From NCBI GenBank assembly GCA_029881795.1, contig JAOULX010000004.1:124001-188000 (forward strand): a DNA stretch of 64,000 bases, written 5' to 3'. The notes beneath the pieces were generated by a model. The model ran no database searches, had not been told where the DNA came from, and saw nothing but the letters and a program-made list of their open reading frames with translations. Source of the DNA: Gammaproteobacteria bacterium. GTDB taxonomy: Bacteria; Pseudomonadota; Gammaproteobacteria; SZUA-229. Shown here piece by piece: positions 2,949-15,434 of the stretch; the stretch's first letter is position 1; every line of letters starts with the position of its first letter. Position numbers and translations under genes: made by a program.

Positions 2949-3254
2949 TTAATCTATACTGAATAACTTATCAAAATTCGCTATCTGCAAGATATTTTTG
3001 ACTTCAGCATTAGCGTTTACGATTTTTATATCACCACCTAAAGTACCTGAATGCTCTTTAAGTAACAAAATCATACCTAATGCTGAGCTGTCCATATATT
3101 CAGTGCTTGTCATATCTAAAATAAATATTGTAGCGGCCTCTGTCGCACCTCTGTAGGCATCTCTAAACTCATGATGTGAACTGAAATCAAAGCGCCCATC
3201 AATTTTAATAACAACCTTTTTACCATCATCAGATTTTTCTACCGATATCGACAT
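2949..3254 (-). CDS. Small STAS-domain protein (anti-sigma-factor-antagonist type)
   Basis: This single STAS domain of about 101 aa resembles SpoIIAA/RsbV, with the switch loop MDSSALG carrying the Ser that is phosphorylated in that family. Such proteins act as phosphorylation-dependent protein-binding switches. I start it at the ATG at 3254, preceded by GGAGAG at good spacing; an in-frame GTG at 3266 directly abuts the stop of the upstream receptor gene. It is the last gene of the chemotaxis cluster and is tightly coupled to a receptor lacking a periplasmic domain, so it probably modulates signalling there. No serine kinase or phosphatase partner gene is visible, so the target is unknown. 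Confidence 0.85.
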   Translation of the reverse strand: MSISVEKSDDGKKVVIKIDGRFDFSSHHEFRDAYRGATEAATIFILDMTSTEYMDSSALGMILLLKEHSGTLGGDIKIVNANAEVKNILQIANFDKLFSID

Positions 3255-3266
3255 CTTTCTCTCCAC

Positions 3267-4466
3267 TTAAAATAATTCAATTTTACCTTCAGACATATTA
3301 TCTTGCTGAACTTTCGTTCTGGCAAGCTGACTTACTTCATCCAGTTCAGATTTTATTACCCTATTCATAGAAACAAGCACCTCTAAAATATCTTCTGGGT
3401 TGTTGTCCTCAAACTCTAATGCCTGAAGCTTACTATGCAGAAGATCAAAGCCACTCATAATCTGACATAAATGCATGTGTATATATTCACATAACTGGCG
3501 ACTAATATCCTCAAACTGAAGTGCCCGAACGGCCACATTAACCCCATTTTCAATATTTTCAGTGATATTACTAACTTCCGATAATTTGGTTGCTATAAAG
3601 ACATTCATGTCATTTAAACTGTCAAGCATCTCTTCGACACGATCCTTTGACTGTATGGCGACACTCATATCTTTTGATGCGATATCAGCTATGATTCTCT
3701 GGGCCTTAGTCATATCTGTAACTGAGCGCTGTACAGCAATCTTTATTTTTTCATTAAATTCATTAGAGCGCACTGAAAGTTCTCTGACTTCAGATGCAAC
3801 CACCGCAAAACCTCGACCAGCATCGCCGGCCCGAGCAGCCTCTATCGCGGCATTTAACGCTAGCAGATTAGTTTGATCCGCAATCGTCTTAGTATCACCC
3901 AGCAAACTGCTAATTTCATTCATATTGAGAACCATGTCATCAATAGTGTGAACCATAACCATACTTTCTTTGCTGACATTTATGATATGACTTATGAAGT
4001 AATTGAGTATCTCATCGGTTTCATTTGCAAACTGCTTAATTGTAATGCGATCAGAATCCGTCGAATTTGAGTCGCTCATATTAACAATAAGACTCATTAT
4101 CAGCCGCTCTTGAGAGCGCGCCTCAGAACTTAATGTTGAAAAACTATTACTGAGTGCAGATACAGCATCTGAGACCAGTTTACCGACCTGATCAGAACTG
4201 TCTTTTAGTAAGGCCAAATCATTCGAAACAAGTTTAATGAACTTTGTAATCTGTTCATTAACATCAGCCAGCTGAGACCTTTTGTCAGCTCCAGTTGATT
4301 GTTTTTGCATGTATTTTTGCTGACTTAAGTGCACAAAGAACACGTTAATCAGCCAGACAATTAGTATTATAAAAAGAGTCAGCACATTAGAAAAATAATT
4401 TAAAAAGAAAGATCCAAATAATATAGCAACAAGATTAACTGTAATGCTTGGCCAGTACTTTTTCAT
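3267..4466 (-). CDS. Methyl-accepting chemotaxis-type protein with no periplasmic sensor domain
   Basis: This protein of about 400 aa has two closely spaced N-terminal membrane segments (about residues 5-45 together) and no room for a periplasmic domain. A long cytoplasmic coiled coil follows with the receptor hairpin tip ([18 protein letters not shown], then [15 protein letters not shown]) that binds CheA and CheW. The C-terminal part has an LQFEDISRQ motif often seen in sensorless receptors of chemosensory clusters. The start is uncertain: ATG at 4466 is used, but GTG at 4478 with an upstream GGA is possible. It lies 15-27 bases after cheB and runs directly into the STAS gene, so it is part of the operon. 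The stimulus is unknown and may be internal or membrane-derived. Confidence 0.88.
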
Positions 4467-4493
4467 AATCCAGAGCACTTACCTAATTCCACT

Positions 4494-5588
4494 CTATGAA
4501 ACAGATGATTTTCGAGCAAATTTCATAATTTCTTTTGCGACACCATCAAGCGGTAGCTCTTTGTCAACCGCCCCAAGTTTTACTGCTGCACCAGGCATGC
4601 CCCAGACAACAGAAGTTTTTTCATCCTGTGCGATATTGTAAGCGCCAGCCTGCTTCATTTCTAACATGCCCTGTGCTCCATCAGCACCCATTCCTGTTAG
4701 CATTACTCCCATGACATTTGGGCCTGCACTTTTTGCAACAGATCTAAACAAAACATCGACACTGGGTTTATGTCGGTTAACCTCAGGGCCATCATTGAGC
4801 TCACAGATATATTTCGCACCAGTGCGCTTGATAATAAGATGTTTATCTCCCGGTGCAAGATAGACATGACCCGATATGATCTGATCTCCCTGCCTGGCTT
4901 CACGTACTCTCAAACTAGAATATTCATCAAGCCGGCGTGCAAAACTGGTACTAAAAGTAGCCGGTATGTGTTGAGCGATAACAATGCCAGGCACATCAGA
5001 GGGAAGTGCCATAATCACTTCTTTAATTGCTTCAGTGCCACCTGTTGATGCACCAATCGCAATAAATTTATCCGTTGTATTAACAATTGTTTGTGCTGAA
5101 CCACCCGCTAATATCGCATCCGCTGACAATTTTGGTGATACTTTCATGTTCTCAAATGTTTTGATGCGTTTTTCTATCTTACTAACATTAACTGTCGAGG
5201 CAATGATCACCTTTTCAATTATATCGTCTGCATAATCACTCAATGAATGCGTAAAATCTGTTTTGGGTTTGGGTATATAATCAATAGCACCACTTTCAAG
5301 TGCTTCGAGTGTCACATCAGCGCCGTCTTCGGTTAGTGTTGATATCATCACAACCGGTATCGGGCGAAGTCGCATAAGATTTTTCAGAAAGGTAACGCCA
5401 TCCATACGTGGCATTTCCACATCAAGCGTAATCACATCTGGGTTTAATTGTTTGATTTTATCCCGAGCTATAAAAGGATCCGCTGCCGTACCTACCACTT
5501 CAATCTTAGGACTAGAAGATAGTATCTCTGTTAATAGCTTACGCATCAGAGCTGCGTCATCAACAATCAGTACTTTTATTTTTGACAT
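4494..5588 (-). CDS. cheB: Chemotaxis protein-glutamate methylesterase/glutamine deamidase CheB
   Basis: CheB removes methyl groups from receptor glutamates and deamidates receptor glutamines, giving adaptation when phosphorylated by CheA. The N-terminal receiver domain has the acidic pair D10/D11 and phospho-acceptor D56 (ITLDVEMP). A linker follows, then the C-terminal methylesterase domain with the catalytic triad Ser181 (GASTGG), His207 (AQHIPA) and Asp303 (TGMGADG). The length of 364 aa is normal. It follows cheD by 16 bases and precedes the sensorless receptor gene. Its likely substrates are the two receptors in this cluster, one of which ends in a CheR/CheB-type tether pentapeptide. 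Confidence 0.97.
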
Positions 5589-5604: not shown

Positions 5605-6234
5605 TTAAAACAGCTCAACATCACTGACAACAGGCGCTTTTTTAATCTCATCAAGATACCGGTTTTCTCTGGTAATAATTGTTTGATTATGCAGCTTTTT
5701 AAGCTTTTTAACCCTTGCTACACCCGTCTTTGGAAAGTAATTAACTTTCCTAGGATAGATATCGCCCACATCATCAGTTAGAACTGAAAAATTTTCCATT
5801 TTTAAGTATTCAAAAACAAAATCAATATTTTTCTGCCCAATATTCATTTTCATATCCAGAACCTTACCGCCACCAAAGACTTTAAACTCAAGGTTTCTGC
5901 GCTCACCACCGTAATGTAAAATATCGTTTATTAAATGCTCCATGGCATAATTACCATAACGCGCCGCGTCACTGACAATACTGCCATCATTGCTGTTGTC
6001 TTTAGGTAACATGAAGTGATTCATGCCGCCAATACCGTTTTTCGGATCTCGAATACAAACCGATATACAGGACCCAAGAACCGTTGTTATAAGCTCATTG
6101 GTCACTGACACATAATATTCGCCAGGTAATATTTTAGCGGCAACACAATCATTTGTTTTATCCCAGTAACGTTTAATTCCTTCAAACTCGGGTAGCGCCT
6201 TATGCAGCCGGTGTTTATCATCGCTTAATGCCAT
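5605..6234 (-). CDS. cheD: Chemoreceptor glutamine deamidase CheD
   Basis: CheD deamidates specific receptor glutamines to glutamates and, in some bacteria, works with CheC-type phosphatases. The family catalytic Cys (C56, in VLGSCISV) and His (H73, in GGMNHFMLP) are both present. At 209 aa it is somewhat longer than the usual 160-200 aa, with an N-terminal extension of about 40 residues and a basic C-terminal tail. Its ATG lies one base after the cheR stop codon, so the two are translationally coupled. No CheC or CheX gene is in the window. Confidence 0.95.
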   Translation of the reverse strand: MALSDDKHRLHKALPEFEGIKRYWDKTNDCVAAKILPGEYYVSVTNELITTVLGSCISVCIRDPKNGIGGMNHFMLPKDNSNDGSIVSDAARYGNYAMEHLINDILHYGGERRNLEFKVFGGGKVLDMKMNIGQKNIDFVFEYLKMENFSVLTDDVGDIYPRKVNYFPKTGVARVKKLKKLHNQTIITRENRYLDEIKKAPVVSDVELF

Positions 6235-6235
6235 A

Positions 6236-7081
6236 TCAGACTGTTTTCCTATAAATAGTATGCCCTACAGTCTGAAAATCTTTATTCATGGAATGAATAG
6301 ACTCAGAATGTCCAAGAATAAGATATCCGCCGTCATTTAATAGATCATAGTATCGTTCAATGATCATTTCCTTTGTAGGACCATCGAAATAAATAAATAC
6401 ATTTCGGCAAAAAATGATATCCAGTTTCTTTTTTAGTGGCCATTCCTGAATAAGGTTCAGTCGTTTAAAAGAAATTAACTGACGTAATTTATCATTAACT
6501 TTGACTATACCTTTATTCTCACCACTACCTTTACTAAACCAGCGAGCTTTTCGTGATTTGGAAATATTTTCGATTCTTTGAGAATCGTATACACCAGCAC
6601 GCGCGGTATTTAAAACATCTGAATCGATATCTGTTGCTAGAAATGAGATATCCCAGTTATCCAAATTCAAATTCTCAGCAAGTGTAATGGCTATCGAATA
6701 CGGCTCCTCACCTGTCGATGCTGCTGAACACCAGACCCGAAATGACTTTTTACCCGCATATTTAACCTTGAGCTCAGGAATAATATGACTAGCAAGATAA
6801 TCAAAATGGTAGTTTTCTCTGAAGAAGGATGTCAGATTAGTCGTTATTGAATTAATAAAGTTGGTGAACTCTTTATCATGGTTTTGCTTGAGATATGTAC
6901 AGTACTCAGAAAAATCCGCCATCCCGAGTGTACGCACACGTTTGGCAATACGCGCATAGTACATATCATATTTATCATCTGAAACAATAATACCGGAATA
7001 TTCATTGGCAACTTTTCTAAGGTAATTAAAGTCTTTTTCTGTAAAAACATATTCTCTGTTATGTTTGACTGCAATTGCCAT
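6236..7081 (-). CDS. cheR: Chemotaxis protein methyltransferase CheR (cluster copy)
   Basis: CheR transfers methyl groups from S-adenosylmethionine to receptor glutamates. The N-terminal helical CheR domain (about 1-75) is followed by a Rossmann-type SAM-binding domain with the motif VWCSAASTGEEPYS, an acidic FLATDID motif and IIFCRNVFIYF. The length of 281 aa is typical. It sits between the STAS/WGLF gene and cheD with almost no gap. A second, different CheR is encoded beside cheV at 47868-48701, so the cell has at least two methyltransferases. This copy probably serves the receptors of this cluster. Confidence 0.97.
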   Translation of the reverse strand: MAIAVKHNREYVFTEKDFNYLRKVANEYSGIIVSDDKYDMYYARIAKRVRTLGMADFSEYCTYLKQNHDKEFTNFINSITTNLTSFFRENYHFDYLASHIIPELKVKYAGKKSFRVWCSAASTGEEPYSIAITLAENLNLDNWDISFLATDIDSDVLNTARAGVYDSQRIENISKSRKARWFSKGSGENKGIVKVNDKLRQLISFKRLNLIQEWPLKKKLDIIFCRNVFIYFDGPTKEMIIERYYDLLNDGGYLILGHSESIHSMNKDFQTVGHTIYRKTV

Positions 7082-7086
7082 AAATA

Positions 7087-7878
7087 TTAACCTGCAATAT
7101 CTAATACATTATTAATAAATGAAGATGTTGATAGCAGCTCAATTTTTTCCGATGCATCTTTAACAACCAGTTTACAACTTCTTTTTTGCAGTTCTCTTTG
7201 GGCCACATAAAGCAACTGCAGACCGGTTGCATCCATCGTTTCAACTTCTTTTGCATCAACTACTATATCTATTTCCTTGTGAATCACTTCTTCAAACTCA
7301 TGATAGACTTTATTTATGTTAGCTACGTTAAACGCAGCAGGCAGTAAAATCGTTAATGCCTCCGCATCAATACTTGTGTCTTCGGGTGTATTTTCCGCAA
7401 ACAAACCCCAGGCGACACCCTCGCCAACAGGTAATGATTTTTCTGTAGCTTTTTCATCTTCAAACAAGCCCCAGGAGGCATCATTAGCCTGCACTGCTGG
7501 AGACTCTGTTATAAGCGGTTCATCATCAAACAAACCCCAGCCATCATCCGCCGCTACATTAACTGTTTTTTCTGTTACGGTATTAACCTCTGCTGCGACC
7601 TCAGTCTCCTGATGACTTAAAGTTGATATCTGATCTTGTTCAATATCTTTGGCTACTCCATCAGCAATATCAACCGCACTTCTAACTTTGGCATCAATAT
7701 CATCAAAAGAAATACCAAATTCACTGGCATCCTCACCGGTAATCCAGGATAGCGGATCATGTCCCAACTTTGATTTAAACGGACTTTTTTTAACAGCAAT
7801 TTTGTGCTTTTTAACTGCAGGAGATTTTTTCTTGACAGCCGTTGTTTTAGTAGTTTTTTTATCGCCTTTTTTAGCCAT
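7087..7878 (-). CDS. Lys-rich, WGLF-repeat STAS-domain protein coupled to ParA (putative ParA partner)
   Basis: This 263-aa protein has three parts. The first about 37 residues are very basic (15 Lys, repeats of KK with Ala, Thr, Ser, Pro) and probably disordered. An acidic linker follows with three copies of the WGLF motif (Trp at about 114, 136 and 157, spaced 22 and 21 residues). The C-terminus is a STAS domain (about 170-263) with the switch loop ETMDATGLQL, where Thr replaces the second Ser of SpoIIAA. The ATG overlaps the stop of the ParA-like gene (TGATG), so the two are coupled. Positively charged disordered N-termini are used by ParB-like partners to stimulate ParA ATPases, so I infer a ParA-partner role linked to the chemosensory array. 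I recognise no characterised homologue with this arrangement. Confidence 0.85.
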   Translation of the reverse strand: MAKKGDKKTTKTTAVKKKSPAVKKHKIAVKKSPFKSKLGHDPLSWITGEDASEFGISFDDIDAKVRSAVDIADGVAKDIEQDQISTLSHQETEVAAEVNTVTEKTVNVAADDGWGLFDDEPLITESPAVQANDASWGLFEDEKATEKSLPVGEGVAWGLFAENTPEDTSIDAEALTILLPAAFNVANINKVYHEFEEVIHKEIDIVVDAKEVETMDATGLQLLYVAQRELQKRSCKLVVKDASEKIELLSTSSFINNVLDIAG

Positions 7879-8636
7879 CAAAAAGTTCTCCCTTTAATAA
7901 CGTCTTTAACAAGCGATGCATATTCATCAGCTGATTTACTATTCTCTTTATATTCAAATACAGACTGCCCAAAGCCGGGGGACTCAGCAAGCGCTGCGGC
8001 CTCAGAAATAGAAGTTTTTAACACTGAACCGGGAAAATACTCGATAAGTTTTTCACGTACCTCCTGTGCCAGTTTTCTTCTCTCATGAAAGCGACTTAAA
8101 ACAATCCATTGCTTATAAGTCTTCTGCAAGGCTTCTTCAAAATTGGTAAGCGTAGACATTAAATGTGACAATCCCTGCATAGCCAGATAATCTCCTGTCA
8201 TCGGTATCAGTATTTCTTCAGCCGCAAAAAGCGCATTAATTACAAGCAAGCCTGACGAAGGTGGACTATCGATAATAATAAAGTCCACCGCCTCGTCATA
8301 CTGATCGAGTGCCCGCTTCAGCAGCAGACCTCTCGATTTTCCACCTTCAAGATTTTCAACTTCATTCAAATGGCCGCCAGCAGATACCAATTTAAGGTTA
8401 TCACGCACCTTCAGCTGCACACTTTTCAACGGGATACCCTTTAAAAACACAGCATCCAAACCTGCGATATCCTCACGTGTTACACCAAGACTCGAAGCAA
8501 GATGTGCCTGCGGGTCAAGATCTATAGCAAGCACACGATAGCCACTCAATGCCAGACCATGAGCCAGATTAACAGCCGTGGTCGTTTTGCCCACACCACC
8601 TTTTTGATTTATGACTGATATTAACCTTGCAGTCAT
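7878..8636 (-). CDS. ParA/MinD-family ATPase of the chemotaxis cluster
   Basis: This 252-aa protein has the deviant Walker A motif of ParA ATPases (KGGVGKTTT, residues 12-20), Walker A' (IDLDPQ) and Walker B (FIIIDSPPS). Family members in chemotaxis operons (ParC in Vibrio and Pseudomonas, PpfA in Rhodobacter) position or segregate chemoreceptor arrays, at poles or over the nucleoid. It lies downstream of cheW and is coupled to the Lys-rich STAS gene. No ParP-type gene (a long protein ending in a CheW-like domain) is seen here, so the neighbouring STAS protein or the second CheW may provide the contact to the array. A plasmid or chromosome segregation role is unlikely given the context. Confidence 0.92.
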   Translation of the reverse strand: MTARLISVINQKGGVGKTTTAVNLAHGLALSGYRVLAIDLDPQAHLASSLGVTREDIAGLDAVFLKGIPLKSVQLKVRDNLKLVSAGGHLNEVENLEGGKSRGLLLKRALDQYDEAVDFIIIDSPPSSGLLVINALFAAEEILIPMTGDYLAMQGLSHLMSTLTNFEEALQKTYKQWIVLSRFHERRKLAQEVREKLIEYFPGSVLKTSISEAAALAESPGFGQSVFEYKENSKSADEYASLVKDVIKGRTF

Positions 8637-8678: not shown

Positions 8679-9194
8679 TCAGTCTGCCATATCCTTTAAT
8701 ACATGTAGCTCTTCAGGATTCAACATTTTGTCAATATCCATAAGCACAACCATACCTGACTCAGCCATAACCATGCCTTCAATAAATTTAGTTTCGACCT
8801 TAGCGCCAAAATTAGGTGATTTTTTTATCTCCGATTTAACCACATCAAGAACATCAGACACGGTATCAACAACTATGCCAATGGTATAATTTTCATTACC
8901 AACCTTTATAGCAAGCACAATAACAACAGTGATCGAGGTATAGTCTATATCACCAAGAGACAAACGCATTCGTAAGTCAATGATTGGGACTATCGTGCCA
9001 CGAAGATCGAGCACACCTTTCACATACGCAGGTGTATTCGGTATTTTCCTGACCTTAGTCCAGCCACGTACCTCCTGAACACGCAAAATATCCACACCAT
9101 AAATATCTTCACCAAGCAAGAACGTCAGATATTGTCGTGCTGAATCGACAACCTCTACCTCGTTCTTACCGGTGATATTTAAAAACTCAGACAT
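8679..9194 (-). CDS. cheW: Chemotaxis coupling protein CheW (second copy of the cluster)
   Basis: This 171-aa single CheW domain couples receptors to CheA. Visible family features are FLLGEDIYGVDILRVQEV, RGWTKVRKIPNTPAYVKGVLDLRG and TIVPIIDLR. It resembles the CheW at 12511-13017 but differs at both ends, so this is an older duplication rather than a recent one. It lies between the large receptor gene and the ParA-like gene. That position suggests it may serve as the adaptor between the ParA/STAS pair and the array, which is inference only. Confidence 0.95.
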   Translation of the reverse strand: MSEFLNITGKNEVEVVDSARQYLTFLLGEDIYGVDILRVQEVRGWTKVRKIPNTPAYVKGVLDLRGTIVPIIDLRMRLSLGDIDYTSITVVIVLAIKVGNENYTIGIVVDTVSDVLDVVKSEIKKSPNFGAKVETKFIEGMVMAESGMVVLMDIDKMLNPEELHVLKDMAD

Positions 9195-9233: not shown

Positions 9234-12200
9234 TTAAAAGTCTTCCCACTCATCATCATCGTCTACCATTTTTCTCGGGGCAGGTTTGTTTTTTGATTTT
9301 CGTGGCGCCGGTTTCTCTGACTTCTCCCAACCACCTTTCTCTTCCTTCTCATGATGGTCATTTTTAGAGGATCTGGACAGACTGGCATTAGTTGAAAAGA
9401 ACTCAATCAATTTAACCATTTCTACCGCTTTAGAGACAGACGATTCACTGGCTGCTGATGCTTCTTCTGCAAGTGCGGCGTTTTGTTGTGTCATTTCATC
9501 CATTTGTGAAACGGCTTTATTAATCTGATCAATACCGGCTGATTGTTCGGCGCTTGCAGCAGCGATCTCAGAAATAATATCGCCTACCTTCTTAACGCCA
9601 TTAACGATTTCGCTTAATGTTTCACCCGATTCATTAACCAGTTTAGAACCATTTTCAACTTTCTCTGCACTATCTGTGATTAAATCTTTAATCTCTTTAG
9701 CCGCTGTTGCACTTCGTCCTGCAAGGTTTCTTACCTCGGTTGCAACAACCGCGAAACCACGTCCTTGCTCACCTGCTCTTGCCGCTTCTACCGACGCATT
9801 CAGTGCCAGTAAATTGGTCTGGAAAGCGATCTCGTCAATTACTCCTATGATTTCTGCAATCTTGGTACTACTTGAGTTAATCTCATCCATTGCTATCACA
9901 GCATCCTTAACCACCTCACCACCTTTCTCAGCGGTGCTTCTCGCTCCTGCAGCTAACTGATTAGCTTGCTGTGCATTGTCGGCATTATTTTTCACCGTGC
10001 CTGTCAGCTGCTCCATGCTTGAAGCAGTTTCTTCCAGTGTCGATGCCTGCTCTTCTGCACGTTGAGATAAATTGTTGTTACCTGACGCAATTTCCTCACT
10101 GGTGTTTTTAAAGAACTCACTGGATTCAATTATCTGTCCGATAACGTCTTCAAGTTTATCGATGGTAGCGTTAATGCCGTCTTTTACTTCAGCGTAGGTA
10201 CCTTCGTAATCATCTGTAATTTTCTGAGTTAAGTCACCTTCTGACATCGCCCTGATCACTCTTGCAACATCATTAAAGCTGTTTGATATAACACCAATCA
10301 TTTCATTGATGCCCTCACTTAACTGCAGGAAGAAGCCGTCTTTTCCGGCCAGATCAAGTCGTTGTGTTAAATCCCCTGCTTTTGCAGAGCTTACTATGGT
10401 TTCTACTTCTTTCTCTACAGCCACCTCATTGGTTCTGTCCAGCCATTCAACTGCTGTACCTAAACGTACACCCTGCTCATTAACCACAGGGTTAGCTGTT
10501 AATCTAAAGATTTTATTGCCCACATTAATTTGCGTACCGTACGGTGACGTCATATTTTTCAATAACTGCTGCTGATGCGCCGGATTTTTATGGAACACGT
10601 CGATACAGGTGCCAATCAATGAATCCGCATCAAAGTCAGGTAAATCTCTTTTGATTTCTGATTCTGCAGCTTTCATCATTTTAGTAACCGCTTCATTCAT
10701 GTACATAATAACGTTGTCGTTATCAGCCATCATGACACTGCTTGATACATTATCAAGCGCGACCTTGATTTGCTTCATCTCATCAGCAGTGGCTTTGGTA
10801 TCATTCACATTAAAGCCCAGCTTAATTTGCATCGCTTTCATTGAGCGCAACAAATCACCGAATTCATCATAACGTAATACATCAATGTCGCGTTTGAATT
10901 CATTTTCAGACAAATATCCGAACTCTGTATTGGTATCTTTTAAAACACTTAAAATATCACGTGCAATAACGAAGCCAACGAAAACAGCAATAAACATACC
11001 TACCAAGATCAGAATAAGAATTTTTAACTCAGACGCCGATAACGCCTCAATTCTCTGATCAAGCAGAGCAGTGAGCAATGGTGCCGCTGCATCGTAGAGT
11101 GCAAACGTACTGTCTATGGTTTCAGTGCCGTCACTGAAAAACTCATTTGAATTAAGCGAAGCTAATCTACCTGCAAGAATGACATCAACTTTATTATCAA
11201 AGTCATCGAGCGCCTTCTGCACAGCAGTAGCATACGAACCCATTCTGTTTTTAATCATCGGGTTTTGTTTATAAGCCGATTCCAGGGCCAGCTCTATACT
11301 TTCAACCAAACTGCCATTAATAACAGTTAATCTGGTCAGGCGATCCTTTTGCTCAGCGCTCATTGAGCCTTTGGCTAGAATCGATGCACCCAGGCCACGA
11401 ACCTGCCCCATCTTTTCAGTGAGCTGAAAGACACGGTTAATCAGAATATCCATGATATAAAAACTGTCTACCACTGGATCAAGCATAAGATTTGAGTTAT
11501 TACCGACTTCAACATTTAGCGCGATAACATCTTCTAGCAGTTTGGTATGACGAGAAAAGCTATCGCTGGCAGATAATTGAAAAGTATCACGCTTTAACTG
11601 ATCCCAGTTATCCACAATACTAGATAGTCGGGTGCTTGTTTTTAATTCTGCCCCCAGCCTTTGATCTACACGCTTAAGTGCCTCAATATCTGCATCAATT
11701 TCTTTACGCTTATCAATAATTTTAGCTTTTATCGCTGTATTACCGGATAAAAAGGCAGCACTCATTCCCCGATGCTGGGGCATGCTTTGGATAACCTGAC
11801 GCAGTGCCTGAGAATATTCAACACCGGTTTTTTCTTGTTCTGCAAAAACAATGTCTTTATCTGTAATTACATATACTTCGACAGCTAAAGCCGTAATTAA
11901 AGAAAAGAAAACCAAACCAACAAAGGCCATTTTTTGCCATATTTTTAATCGACTAAAAAAGTTTAACCGCGAAAGTATGCTTTGTTTTGGGGTTTTACCG
12001 GCATTCATATCCGCATACAGTCTTTCTGCCGCTGCAACTTTATCTCTGCTCGGCTTATTACGGACAGACATATAACCAGCGAGTCGACCGCCTTCCATCA
12101 TCGGCGTAACATTAGCCTGAACCCAGTAGTAGTCACCATTTTTACAACGGTTTTTCACCATACCAACCCAGGGCTTTTCTTCCTTGACCGTATTCCACAG

Positions 12201-12404
12201 GTCTTCAAAGGCTGCTGGTGGCATATCAGGATGTCGAACCACATTATGATTTTTACCCATCAGTTCATCACGACTAAATCCACTGATGTCGATAAAATCT
12301 CGGTTAACGAAAGTGATGATTCCTTTCAAGTCCGTTTTTGTAACAAGAAATTGATCTTCTCTCATTACTTTTTCGTTATGCGTCACCGGTTCATTTATTC
12401 TCAT
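9234..12404 (-). CDS. Large chemoreceptor: PAS, NIT-like periplasmic domain, HAMP, PAS, signalling domain, CheR/CheB tether
   Basis: This is a 1056-aa methyl-accepting protein. Its parts in order are an Aer-type PAS domain (about 15-118) and a first membrane segment (about 157-180). Next comes a helical periplasmic region resembling NIT nitrate/nitrite-sensing domains ([12 protein letters not shown]) and a second membrane segment (about 460-482). HAMP-like and second PAS regions (about 540-660) and another HAMP-like stretch follow. The signalling domain has the conserved tip ([18 protein letters not shown]). After a basic, Pro-rich linker the protein ends in EWEDF, matching the xWxxF pentapeptide that tethers CheR and CheB. 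GGAG precedes the ATG. It lies between the two cheW genes and is probably the main sensor of this cluster. Ligands are not determinable from sequence. Confidence 0.93.
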
Positions 12405-12510: not shown

Positions 12511-13017
12511 CTAACCCATACCATTCATTGACAACATGGCATCTACATTTAACAACATCAACATAACGCCATTGGCATCTGCCAAACCTGATATATATTC
12601 AGTATCCAAAGCAGAGCCAAACTGCGGCGTTGCCTGAATATCGCTTAATTTGGCATGCACCACATCGGAAATACTATCGACAACGACACCCATGGTTCGC
12701 TCGTTGCCATCACGTCCGTCATTCACTGACAAAACTATCACTACCGTTGTTTCGGTGTAATCCGAGACAGTAAGATTAAAGCGTTCCCGCAAATCAATAA
12801 TCGGAACTATCGCTCCTCGCAGATTCAGCACGCCTTTTACAAAAGCCGGTGAATTCGGAATACGGGTAACAGCTTCCCAGCCACGGAGTTCCTGAACCCT
12901 AAGAATATCCACACCATACTCTTCATCTGCCAGAGAAAAAGTCAGGTATTCATCACCTAAGTCGGCATCTGAATCCAGCGGTAACTCATCATTTTTCAGT
13001 TCAACGTCTGTACTCAT
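12511..13017 (-). CDS. cheW: Chemotaxis coupling protein CheW (first copy of the cluster)
   Basis: This 168-aa CheW domain protein has a short acidic N-terminal extension of about 20 residues. Family motifs are FSLADEEYGVDILRVQEL, GWEAVTRIPNSPAFVKGV and LNLRGAIVPIIDLR. It links receptor tips to CheA P5 domains in hexagonal arrays. It follows cheA by 16 bases and precedes the large receptor gene, so it is probably the main array adaptor here. Confidence 0.96.
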   Translation of the reverse strand: MSTDVELKNDELPLDSDADLGDEYLTFSLADEEYGVDILRVQELRGWEAVTRIPNSPAFVKGVLNLRGAIVPIIDLRERFNLTVSDYTETTVVIVLSVNDGRDGNERTMGVVVDSISDVVHAKLSDIQATPQFGSALDTEYISGLADANGVMLMLLNVDAMLSMNGMG

Positions 13018-13033
13018 AATATAAATTCTTTCA

Positions 13034-15028
13034 TCAATCAGACATTCTAATTAAACCGGGTATATCAAGAATTAATGCAACTGATCCATCACCTAAAATA
13101 GTTGCACCTGATATACCTTCGATTCGTTTGTAATTTGATTCAAGTGACTTGATAACAACCTGTTGCTGCCCCAACAAGTCATCAACGAACACACCGAAAT
13201 GTTTGCCGTCTGCTTCTACAACTACCAGCAAACCGTCTTCAAGTTTTTTGGCTTTGGCATCGGGTATATTGAATAAGTCACAAACACGTAAAATCGGTAG
13301 ATATTCATCACGTAATTTATAGGTTTCGCCTTTACCGGCGACCATGTTTAACTGCTCTTTCTTCGGCTGTACGGATTCAACAATAGAGACCAGCGGGATA
13401 ATATAGTTATCTCCACCTACGGCAACAGATTGCCCATCCAGAATAGCCAGTGTCAGTGGCAAACGAATACTAAAGATACTGCCCTGACCTTTGACTGAAT
13501 GTGTTTCTATCGCACCACCAAGACTCATGATGTTCTTCTTAACCACATCCATACCGACACCACGACCAGAGACATCAGTAATTTCGGTGGCGGTTGAAAA
13601 ACCAGGGTTAAATAACAAATCGTAAATTTGCTGATCCGCTAATTTTGCTCCGGCTTCGACCAGACCTTTTTCAACGCCTTTGTTATAAATAACCTCTTTA
13701 TCGATACCTTTACCATCATCGGTAATTTCAATCACGATATTGCCGCCACGATGGAACGCATTTAACTGAATCGTACCAACTTTTGGCTTGCCGGCTGCGA
13801 TCCTGGCTTCCGGCATTTCGATGCCGTGATCAATACTATTACGAACCAGATGCACCAGCGGATCACCAATTTTTTCAATAACTGTTTTATCCAGCTCAGT
13901 ATTCTCACCGTGCATCACCAGCTCAATGTTCTTACCCAGCTTTTCACTCAGGTCTCGTACCATCCGCGGAAAACGACTAAAGGTAAAACTGATCGGTACC
14001 ATACGAATTTGCATCACGCTTTCCTGCAATTCACGGGTATGACGATCCAACTGAATAAGTCCTTCCTGCAGTTTTTCAAGGCGACTCATATTAAAGTCTT
14101 CGCCCAGCATACTCAACATCGATTGAGTGATAACAAGCTCGCCCACCATATTGATCAGATCATCAATCTTATCAATACCTACCCGTATCGAGCTGCTGAC
14201 TGCTGCTTTTTCTTTCTTTTCCGCTGCTGCAGTGGTGGTGGTTTTTTTCTCTATAGGCTGAGCAGCCTGCGTCACAGGTGCTGCCACAGGCTGGCTTACG
14301 GATGCCTCTGCACTCTTTAATTCGCTAACAGAAATATCACTTTCATCTTCAACCCAAGCAAAGACATCATCAATCGCAGCTTTACTGGCATCGCCTTTCA
14401 ATTGTAAATCCCAAGATAAAAACATATCTTCGGGGTTTAAATCGGAGAAATCAGGAACTTTACTGGTATCAACCTGGCCGCTCAAAGACCCCAGAGTAGA
14501 AAGCTCTCTGATCACTCTGATAGGATCATTTCCAAATTGCATGAAATTCTTATGCGGGGAAAAACTAATTTTCCAAGCCTTGGCAGCATTATCAGCAGCG
14601 ACTGCTACAGTCTTTGCAGCAACCGGTGCTGACGTATTTTCAGCGCCCAATATTGTTTGTAATGCGTCAAAATTGATTTTCACTTCGTCGTCATTAACAT
14701 CACTGCCATCACTGGCAGCCGTCATCATCATACGCAGACAATCAACTGATTTTAATAAGACATTAATAGCCGAATGATTGAGCTCGCGGATACCGTCGCG
14801 TACTTCATCCAGCAGAGTTTCCATGATATGAGTAAAATCGGCAATCGCCTGAAACCCGAAGGTTCCACTACCGCCTTTTATAGAATGCGCAGCGCGAAAG
14901 ATCGTATTGATCTCTTCGTCATCTGCCTCACCGTTATCAAGATTAAGTAAACCAGTTTCCATTACATCGAGGCCTTCGAAACTTTCTTCGAAAAAAACCT
15001 GATGAAACTGCTCCATATCTATTGCCAT
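13034..15028 (-). CDS. cheA: Chemotaxis histidine kinase CheA
   Basis: CheA autophosphorylates on the P1 histidine and passes phosphate to CheY and CheB. The 664-aa protein has P1 with His48 (AAHSIKGGSGTFGF). A P2-like response-regulator-docking region lies at about 150-235, followed by an Ala/Thr/Lys linker. The P3 dimerisation domain is next (IDKIDDLINMVGELVITQ). The P4 ATPase has N-box HLVRNSIDHGIE and G-boxes DDGKGI and GRGVGMDV. A CheW-like P5 completes the protein. There is no fused receiver domain. It lies 43 bases after cheY and 16 bases before cheW. Confidence 0.97.
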   Translation of the reverse strand: MAIDMEQFHQVFFEESFEGLDVMETGLLNLDNGEADDEEINTIFRAAHSIKGGSGTFGFQAIADFTHIMETLLDEVRDGIRELNHSAINVLLKSVDCLRMMMTAASDGSDVNDDEVKINFDALQTILGAENTSAPVAAKTVAVAADNAAKAWKISFSPHKNFMQFGNDPIRVIRELSTLGSLSGQVDTSKVPDFSDLNPEDMFLSWDLQLKGDASKAAIDDVFAWVEDESDISVSELKSAEASVSQPVAAPVTQAAQPIEKKTTTTAAAEKKEKAAVSSSIRVGIDKIDDLINMVGELVITQSMLSMLGEDFNMSRLEKLQEGLIQLDRHTRELQESVMQIRMVPISFTFSRFPRMVRDLSEKLGKNIELVMHGENTELDKTVIEKIGDPLVHLVRNSIDHGIEMPEARIAAGKPKVGTIQLNAFHRGGNIVIEITDDGKGIDKEVIYNKGVEKGLVEAGAKLADQQIYDLLFNPGFSTATEITDVSGRGVGMDVVKKNIMSLGGAIETHSVKGQGSIFSIRLPLTLAILDGQSVAVGGDNYIIPLVSIVESVQPKKEQLNMVAGKGETYKLRDEYLPILRVCDLFNIPDAKAKKLEDGLLVVVEADGKHFGVFVDDLLGQQQVVIKSLESNYKRIEGISGATILGDGSVALILDIPGLIRMSD

Positions 15029-15071: not shown

Positions 15072-15434
15072 CTAACCGATAACTTTCTTTACAACAGCTA
15101 ATAGCTGATCTGGATTAAATGGTTTTACAATCCAGCCCGTCGCTCCAGCAGTTTTACCCTCGGCTTTTTTATCAGCCGACGACTCGGTTGTTAGCATAAG
15201 AATGGGGGTGAATTTATACTTTGCTTCTGCTCGCAGATGTTTAATGAAGGTTATGCCATCCATAACAGGCATATTTACATCGGTAATAACCAGATCAAAT
15301 TGTTTGGTTTTAGAAGCATCCAGCGCTTTTTGTCCATCTTCAGCTTCTACCACGTCATAACCTGCACCTTTTAATGTAAATGCAACCATTTGCCGCATTG
15401 ATGCAGAGTCATCAACCGTTAATATCAAAGCCAT
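15072..15434 (-). CDS. cheY: Chemotaxis response regulator CheY
   Basis: This 120-aa single receiver domain has the acidic pair D8/D9, phospho-acceptor D52 (VITDVNMP), a Thr in LMLTTES and the conserved Lys104 (IVKPF). When phosphorylated by CheA it would bind the flagellar switch or compete as a phosphate sink. It is the first gene of the chemotaxis cluster and is probably cotranscribed with cheA. Because CheZ is not in the window and polar-flagellated relatives often carry another cheY beside cheZ, this copy might not be the only motor-binding CheY. Confidence 0.95.
   Translation of the reverse strand: MALILTVDDSASMRQMVAFTLKGAGYDVVEAEDGQKALDASKTKQFDLVITDVNMPVMDGITFIKHLRAEAKYKFTPILMLTTESSADKKAEGKTAGATGWIVKPFNPDQLLAVVKKVIG

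Follow-up and report, generated by a model that had tools for sequence, protein, structure and literature searches.

A ParA-family ATPase gene in a chemotaxis (che) operon is in itself ordinary, because PpfA homologues are found in the che operons of 37% of 206 species (PMC2829493). ParA-type ATPases work with partners of such diversity that many of the ATPases are regarded as orphans (PMC10241942). The operon described here lies in a 64,000-nucleotide stretch of DNA, called the window below, and encodes a STAS-domain protein directly after its ParA gene. This raises the question of whether the STAS protein is the partner of the ATPase and, if so, which part of it would contact ParA and which part the chemosensory array.

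The parA-STAS gene pair in a che operon

The operon has the gene order cheY-cheA-cheW-mcp-cheW-parA-STAS-cheR-cheD-cheB (table 1). Open reading frames and Pfam matches confirmed the first-pass annotation of this DNA, which had placed parA and the STAS gene between cheW and cheR with a TGATG overlap. Within it, the parA stop codon TGA and the partner's start codon ATG have one base in common, and AGGGAGA stands directly 5' of that ATG. The features described for the STAS protein were likewise correct: 15 of its first 37 residues are lysines, and it has three WGLF motifs besides the STAS domain.

Table 1. Features of the che operon and of the STAS-domain partner, with positions in the window.
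Feature	Position	Strand	Basis
cheY	15072..15434	-	Pfam Response_reg 2.7e-29
cheA	13034..15028	-	Pfam Hpt, H-kinase_dim, HATPase_c, CheW
cheW, first copy	12511..13017	-	Pfam CheW 3.8e-36
Chemoreceptor (PAS, NIT, HAMP, MCPsignal; two hydrophobic TM-like segments; C-terminal EWEDF)	9234..12404	-	
cheW, second copy, upstream of parA	8679..9194	-	Pfam CheW 7.5e-32
ParA-family ATPase, discrete che-associated clade	7878..8636	-	Pfam AAA_31 1.2e-42; clade profile
STAS-domain partner, 263 aa, TGATG overlap with parA	7087..7878	-	ORF, Pfam; homologues in the same place in relatives
Lys-rich disordered N-terminus, residues 1-36	7771..7878	-	Lys count; AF2 pLDDT about 42-52
Tag LGHDPLSWI, residues 38-46, proposed ParA-contacting peptide	7741..7767	-	Conservation
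GWGLF, motif 1, residues 113-117	7528..7542	-	Sequence
SWGLF, motif 2, residues 135-139	7462..7476	-	Sequence
AWGLF, motif 3, residues 156-160	7399..7413	-	Sequence
STAS domain, residues about 170-259	7102..7371	-	Pfam, AF2, Foldseek
cheR, downstream of the STAS gene	6236..7081	-	Pfam CheR 6.2e-62
cheD	5605..6234	-	By sequence, without Pfam scan; homologues in the same place in relatives
cheB	4494..5588	-	By sequence, without Pfam scan; homologues in the same place in relatives

The ATPase (252 aa) contains KGGVGKT and, besides AAA_31, matches Pfam CbiA (1.7e-21). With a profile built for its clade (profile A2), clade members score 288-421 bits and chromosomal Soj/ParA proteins 230 or less, with a gap between them, and membership was set at 288 bits or more. 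QKGGVGKT, which fits the deviant Walker A pattern KGGxGK[ST] with its signature lysine, is invariant in 18 of 18 clade members, which places them in the ParA/MinD family. The profile found clade ParAs in 43 of 370 gammaproteobacterial genomes; in the congeneric genome G003 the contig ends inside cheA, and a missing match there is no sign of absence.

The partner matches Pfam STAS_2 (2.4e-8) and STAS (6.3e-6) at residues 175-246, both above the gathering cut-offs. AF2 models this domain with a pLDDT of 80-91, and Foldseek on the model places its fold closest to RsbV/SpoIIAA, the best match being RsbV (6m36, E 3.7e-5, rmsd 1.2 over 86 columns). Pfam returned only STAS families and NCBIfam only STAS-containing families, and a CheW-like (AIF) domain was not found by either. 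The last gene of the operon, behind a receptor-like gene, encodes a second, stand-alone STAS protein (2949-3266, 105 aa, with a canonical D-S-S); its homologue adjoins a clade ParA in two genomes that lack a tagged partner of the kind described below (L138 and L167).

Fifteen lysines in residues 1-37 have a probability of about 1e-8 at the local lysine frequency of 7%, and three WxLF motifs arose in 0 of 20,000 shuffles of the linker. The WGLF motifs, which had been proposed to connect the protein to the array, occur in no genus other than that of the window (3 species), and this rules them out as a general array link. Each of the three fits xWxxF, as do the EWE[ED]F C-termini of receptors, so within their acidic sequence they could mimic this receptor peptide and bring CheR or CheB to the adaptor. 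The cluster receptor does end in such a CheR/CheB-type pentapeptide (DDDDEWEDF), and nearly all chemoreceptors examined at clade parA loci have a WxxF pentapeptide at the C-terminus, mostly EWEEF. The WGLF motifs are, however, internal rather than C-terminal and confined to a single genus, and we regard such mimicry as unlikely. A different C-terminal peptide, [VI]ELF, is common to CheD and the small receptor-like protein (3267-4478, 403 aa), which end in SDVELF and GKIELF, respectively; relatives of both likewise end in IELF or VELF.

A conserved N-terminal tag and its pairing with ParA

Outside the STAS fold a single block is invariant, LGHDPLSWI, right after the lysine stretch. Alignment A1, for which the outside rows had been collected with the motif itself, shows no variation at G39, H40, D41, P42, L43 and W45. 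Other genera of the same family keep the order cheW-parA-STAS-cheR-cheD and have a linker without WGLF; after the lysine stretch they keep K-L-G-H-D-P-L-A-W-[IL]-S-G. The first-pass annotation had overlooked this tag, DPL[AS]W, the most conserved part of the protein, as well as the alternative scaffolds that carry it.

We ran GHDPxxW as a DNA pattern, using no STAS information, over the 370 gammaproteobacterial genomes. Once matches in unrelated or wrong-frame ORFs were set aside, six proteins remained that carry the motif close to the N-terminus, all of them encoded right after a ParA gene. One of the six is not a STAS protein but a globin-PAS chemoreceptor, which starts with MAKSGASKMGHDPLAWM. 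In about 85,000 species, represented by one genome each, N-terminal matches of the motif likewise followed ParA wherever the contig or stretch reached that far; unrelated internal matches were also present and were set aside.

Since these matches had been chosen by motif, the search by ParA profile served as the converse test. For 35 of the 43 clade ParAs, the next gene encodes a protein with a strict [DN]PL[ASG]W tag at its N-terminus. In genome G243 the parA contig ends and a tagged STAS-like protein stands at the end of another contig, bringing the genomes with a strict tag to 36 of 43. Four others have a degenerate tag (GDDPLAA, GHDPLAA, SHDPLDD and KDDPFDW), and three clade ParAs lack a tagged neighbour (G124, G239 and G339). 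Genome G239 gave no CheA match at E 1e-30, and its untagged ParA is consistent with a relic. ParAs whose partner tag is missing or degenerate (L145 = G124, L143 = G255, L140 = G402) sit on branches that rank with the longest in the ParA tree, which would fit a relaxed constraint.

Searched as the pattern GxDPL[AS]W[MIL], the tag matched in 33 of the 370 genomes against 1 for a reversed-pattern control. Clade ParA is present in 29 of these 33 (Fisher 2e-28), and the remaining four matches are spurious or fall in short, internal or wrong-frame ORFs. Among 367 Pseudomonadota genomes from across the phylum, N-terminal tags occurred in only 3, all with clade ParA. Neither scan (370 and 367 genomes) gave a genuine N-terminal tag in a genome without clade ParA; as an exact pattern passes over variants, the exclusivity holds for the canonical tag and not for every form of it. 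In the genomes sampled, no N-terminal tag was found outside Gamma- and Zetaproteobacteria. The ORFs of 50 of these ParA loci, 222,288 aa in total, contain the motif 35 times, and each time it lies within the partner's first 60 residues. The window pair fits the group that we propose on this basis, in which the gene that directly follows a clade ParA encodes an N-terminal [DN]PL[AS]W tag.

The STAS protein is thus very probably the partner of ParA, as had been suggested from the window alone, given that the two genes are adjacent in relatives and even outside the che operon. Homologues occurring mostly without ParA, which had been named as an observation against the pairing, were looked for in the 370- and 367-genome surveys and not seen.

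The lysine stretch, in comparison with the tag, does not hold up as the defining feature that it had been taken for. Its length and place vary, with 0 to 19 Lys/Arg before the tag and many partners having only 0-4; in one genus of the same family the basic stretch follows the tag instead of preceding it. Some tagged partners (L058, L084 and L141) have no Lys or Arg before the tag, and basic charge cannot be the activating feature there. These counts also bear on the idea that the lysines tether the array to the nucleoid by direct binding, with ParA only spreading the clusters. FrzCD is reported to bind DNA via a basic N-terminal tail (PMC5716589), and Lys/Arg-rich stretches lie on either side of the tag in relatives. 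The many partners with so few basic residues before the tag nevertheless make such a role distinctly improbable.

Tagged scaffolds and known systems

The tag is carried by three scaffolds: STAS proteins, globin-STAS proteins and soluble chemoreceptors of the layout globin-PAS-HAMP-MCPsignal. At least four scaffold changes are seen on the ParA tree, which comes from a short search and has many weakly supported forks. The globin-STAS proteins (L079, L089, L103, L163 and L168) recall the layout of the stressosome protein RsbR (globin-like plus STAS). In a simple hydropathy scan, all tagged receptors lack hydrophobic TM-like segments and the window's cluster receptor has two, so that it looks membrane-bound. 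A tagged chemoreceptor as the partner makes the link to the array explicit. In three Thiotrichaceae-family genomes, including Thiomargarita, the ParA-STAS pair lies away from che genes and is still together, while cheY-cheA-cheW clusters without the pair are found elsewhere in the same genomes. This indicates that the constant neighbour of the tag is ParA and not the operon.

The pair could also work together with the tag serving as an array-binding peptide (for CheA, CheW or the receptor tip) and the lysines alone contacting ParA. Basic N-termini are a known ParA-activating feature (PMC7993993), and some partners are very Lys-rich, the window protein above all. Yet the tag is also found on chemoreceptors, which need no array-binding peptide, on partners without a basic residue before it, and next to ParA even away from che genes. 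We think it unlikely that the tag binds the array; it is probably the ParA-contacting peptide.

STAS proteins in che operons have a precedent in the CheS proteins of Sinorhizobium and Agrobacterium. CheS consists of a single STAS domain and is reported to bind CheA and to alter CheY1 dephosphorylation in alphaproteobacteria (PMC12654446). Were the window protein a CheS-like or anti-anti-sigma-type regulator, acting on CheA-CheY phosphoryl flow or on a sigma/anti-sigma switch, ParA would be a coincidental neighbour. The RsbV/SpoIIAA-like fold and the further stand-alone STAS gene of the operon fit such a role. The window protein differs from CheS, however, in its 263 aa, its long tagged Lys-rich N-terminal extension and its ParA neighbour. 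The phosphoacceptor position of SpoIIAA (D-x-[ST]) is Thr in the window protein; across STAS partners it is Ser/Thr in about a third and Ala/Val in about two thirds, whereas the phospho-switched antagonists SpoIIAA/RsbV conserve Ser/Thr. A plain docking role of the STAS domain is therefore likelier than a phospho-switch. As a chemoreceptor can, moreover, replace the STAS body while tag and ParA stay, we consider a signalling regulator with an unrelated ParA very unlikely.

Among ParA systems, the closest likeness is to PpfA/TlpT of Rhodobacter sphaeroides, where a ParA homologue in a che operon is encoded directly beside its partner and binds the charged N-terminus of TlpT (PMC3964821). The N-terminus of the window partner is likewise charged, and ATPase binding there would be the counterpart. 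Further traits of the Rhodobacter system are DNA binding by the ATPase and dispersal of the clusters in the cell. TlpT is a cytoplasmic chemoreceptor, unlike the window's STAS protein, but in several relatives (e.g. L055, L101 and L150) the partner is indeed a soluble chemoreceptor with the tag. The ParC/ParP systems of Vibrio and Pseudomonas and ParC (Hn0722) of Halothiobacillus neapolitanus also combine an ATPase with an overlapping or adjacent partner gene in a che operon, and complementation of H. neapolitanus ParC requires the overlapping neighbour gene (PMC10241942). Those systems serve array placement, which is the role that we propose for the window pair. ParP has a C-terminal CheW-like domain, which the STAS partner lacks.

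The STAS protein had been suggested to take the place of ParP. This is ruled out by a second che cluster in the same genome (G000:C16:48795-50575; L060 12796-14576), in which a ParA gene stands beside a 337-aa CheW-domain ParP-like protein, together with flhG-like, cheA, cheB and motAB-like genes. The ParC-like ATPase of that cluster shares 28% identity with the window ParA and groups with the outgroup, outside the clade, on a branch of 4.47 that leaves its place unsure. As the genome keeps this ParC/ParP-like cluster, the STAS pair would be an additional system for its own operon. In the open-access literature searched, we recognised neither a STAS-type ParA partner in a che operon nor the DPLAW motif in a relevant context, and the earlier statement that no described system has exactly this composition still stands there.

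Proposed mechanism and its meaning

We consider it likely that the ParA-partner module positions the array of its operon and shares it out, with the tag contacting ParA and the STAS domain docking on the array. The ATP-bound ParA dimer would bind nucleoid DNA without sequence specificity, and the partner would act as a two-ended adaptor between ParA and the array. Its disordered N-terminus, with the usually lysine-flanked tag [LMI]-G-x-D-P-L-[AS]-W-[MIL], would contact the ParA dimer and thereby stimulate ATP hydrolysis and release. The C-terminal STAS domain would dock the adaptor on the array, most likely via CheA by analogy with CheS. The array could then follow ParA gradients on the nucleoid, or stay at one place, and be inherited. 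This likely division of labour, with the tag and lysines facing ParA and the STAS domain facing the array, follows from PpfA-TlpT (PMC3964821) and from the logic of ParA activators, in which basic peptides at the N-terminus are attached to interaction domains of various kinds (PMC7993993). The apparently membrane-bound receptor of the window makes a nucleoid-based mechanism less obvious. When AF2 was given a natural read-through chain of ParA and partner (L081, with Gly at both stops), the tag was undocked with a pLDDT of about 32, though a chain with a single ParA copy tests docking poorly.

ParB/Spo0J, PomX, McdB and MinE are also laid out in this way, with a short peptide at the N-terminus and a body that binds the cargo. 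The tag differs from the LGRGLxALL motif of ParB, and the resemblance is weak: a profile of the ParB N-terminus gave the tags a mean best score of -2.6 bits, against 30-39 for ParB itself. These scores beat those of shuffles, although they are negative and come from rows that are not independent, and we do not claim homology to the ParB motif.

On balance, we favour the view that the tag is a portable peptide for ParA recognition and activation, of a type different from those of ParB and MinE and joined to at least three unrelated cargo adaptors, which would define a widespread array partition system of Gamma- and Zetaproteobacteria. Array partition of the PpfA/TlpT kind was already known; a STAS partner with this tag would be a new form of it, and the tag is apparently undescribed. 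Nine residues identify the partner from sequence alone in most of the ParA clade, and the natural exchange of domains separates the proposed ATPase-contact element from the cargo adaptor. The tag also supplies peptides and point mutants for testing the coupling of arrays to ParA. Finally, these findings suggest that one ATPase clade serves membrane-bound and soluble arrays alike, by way of different adaptors.
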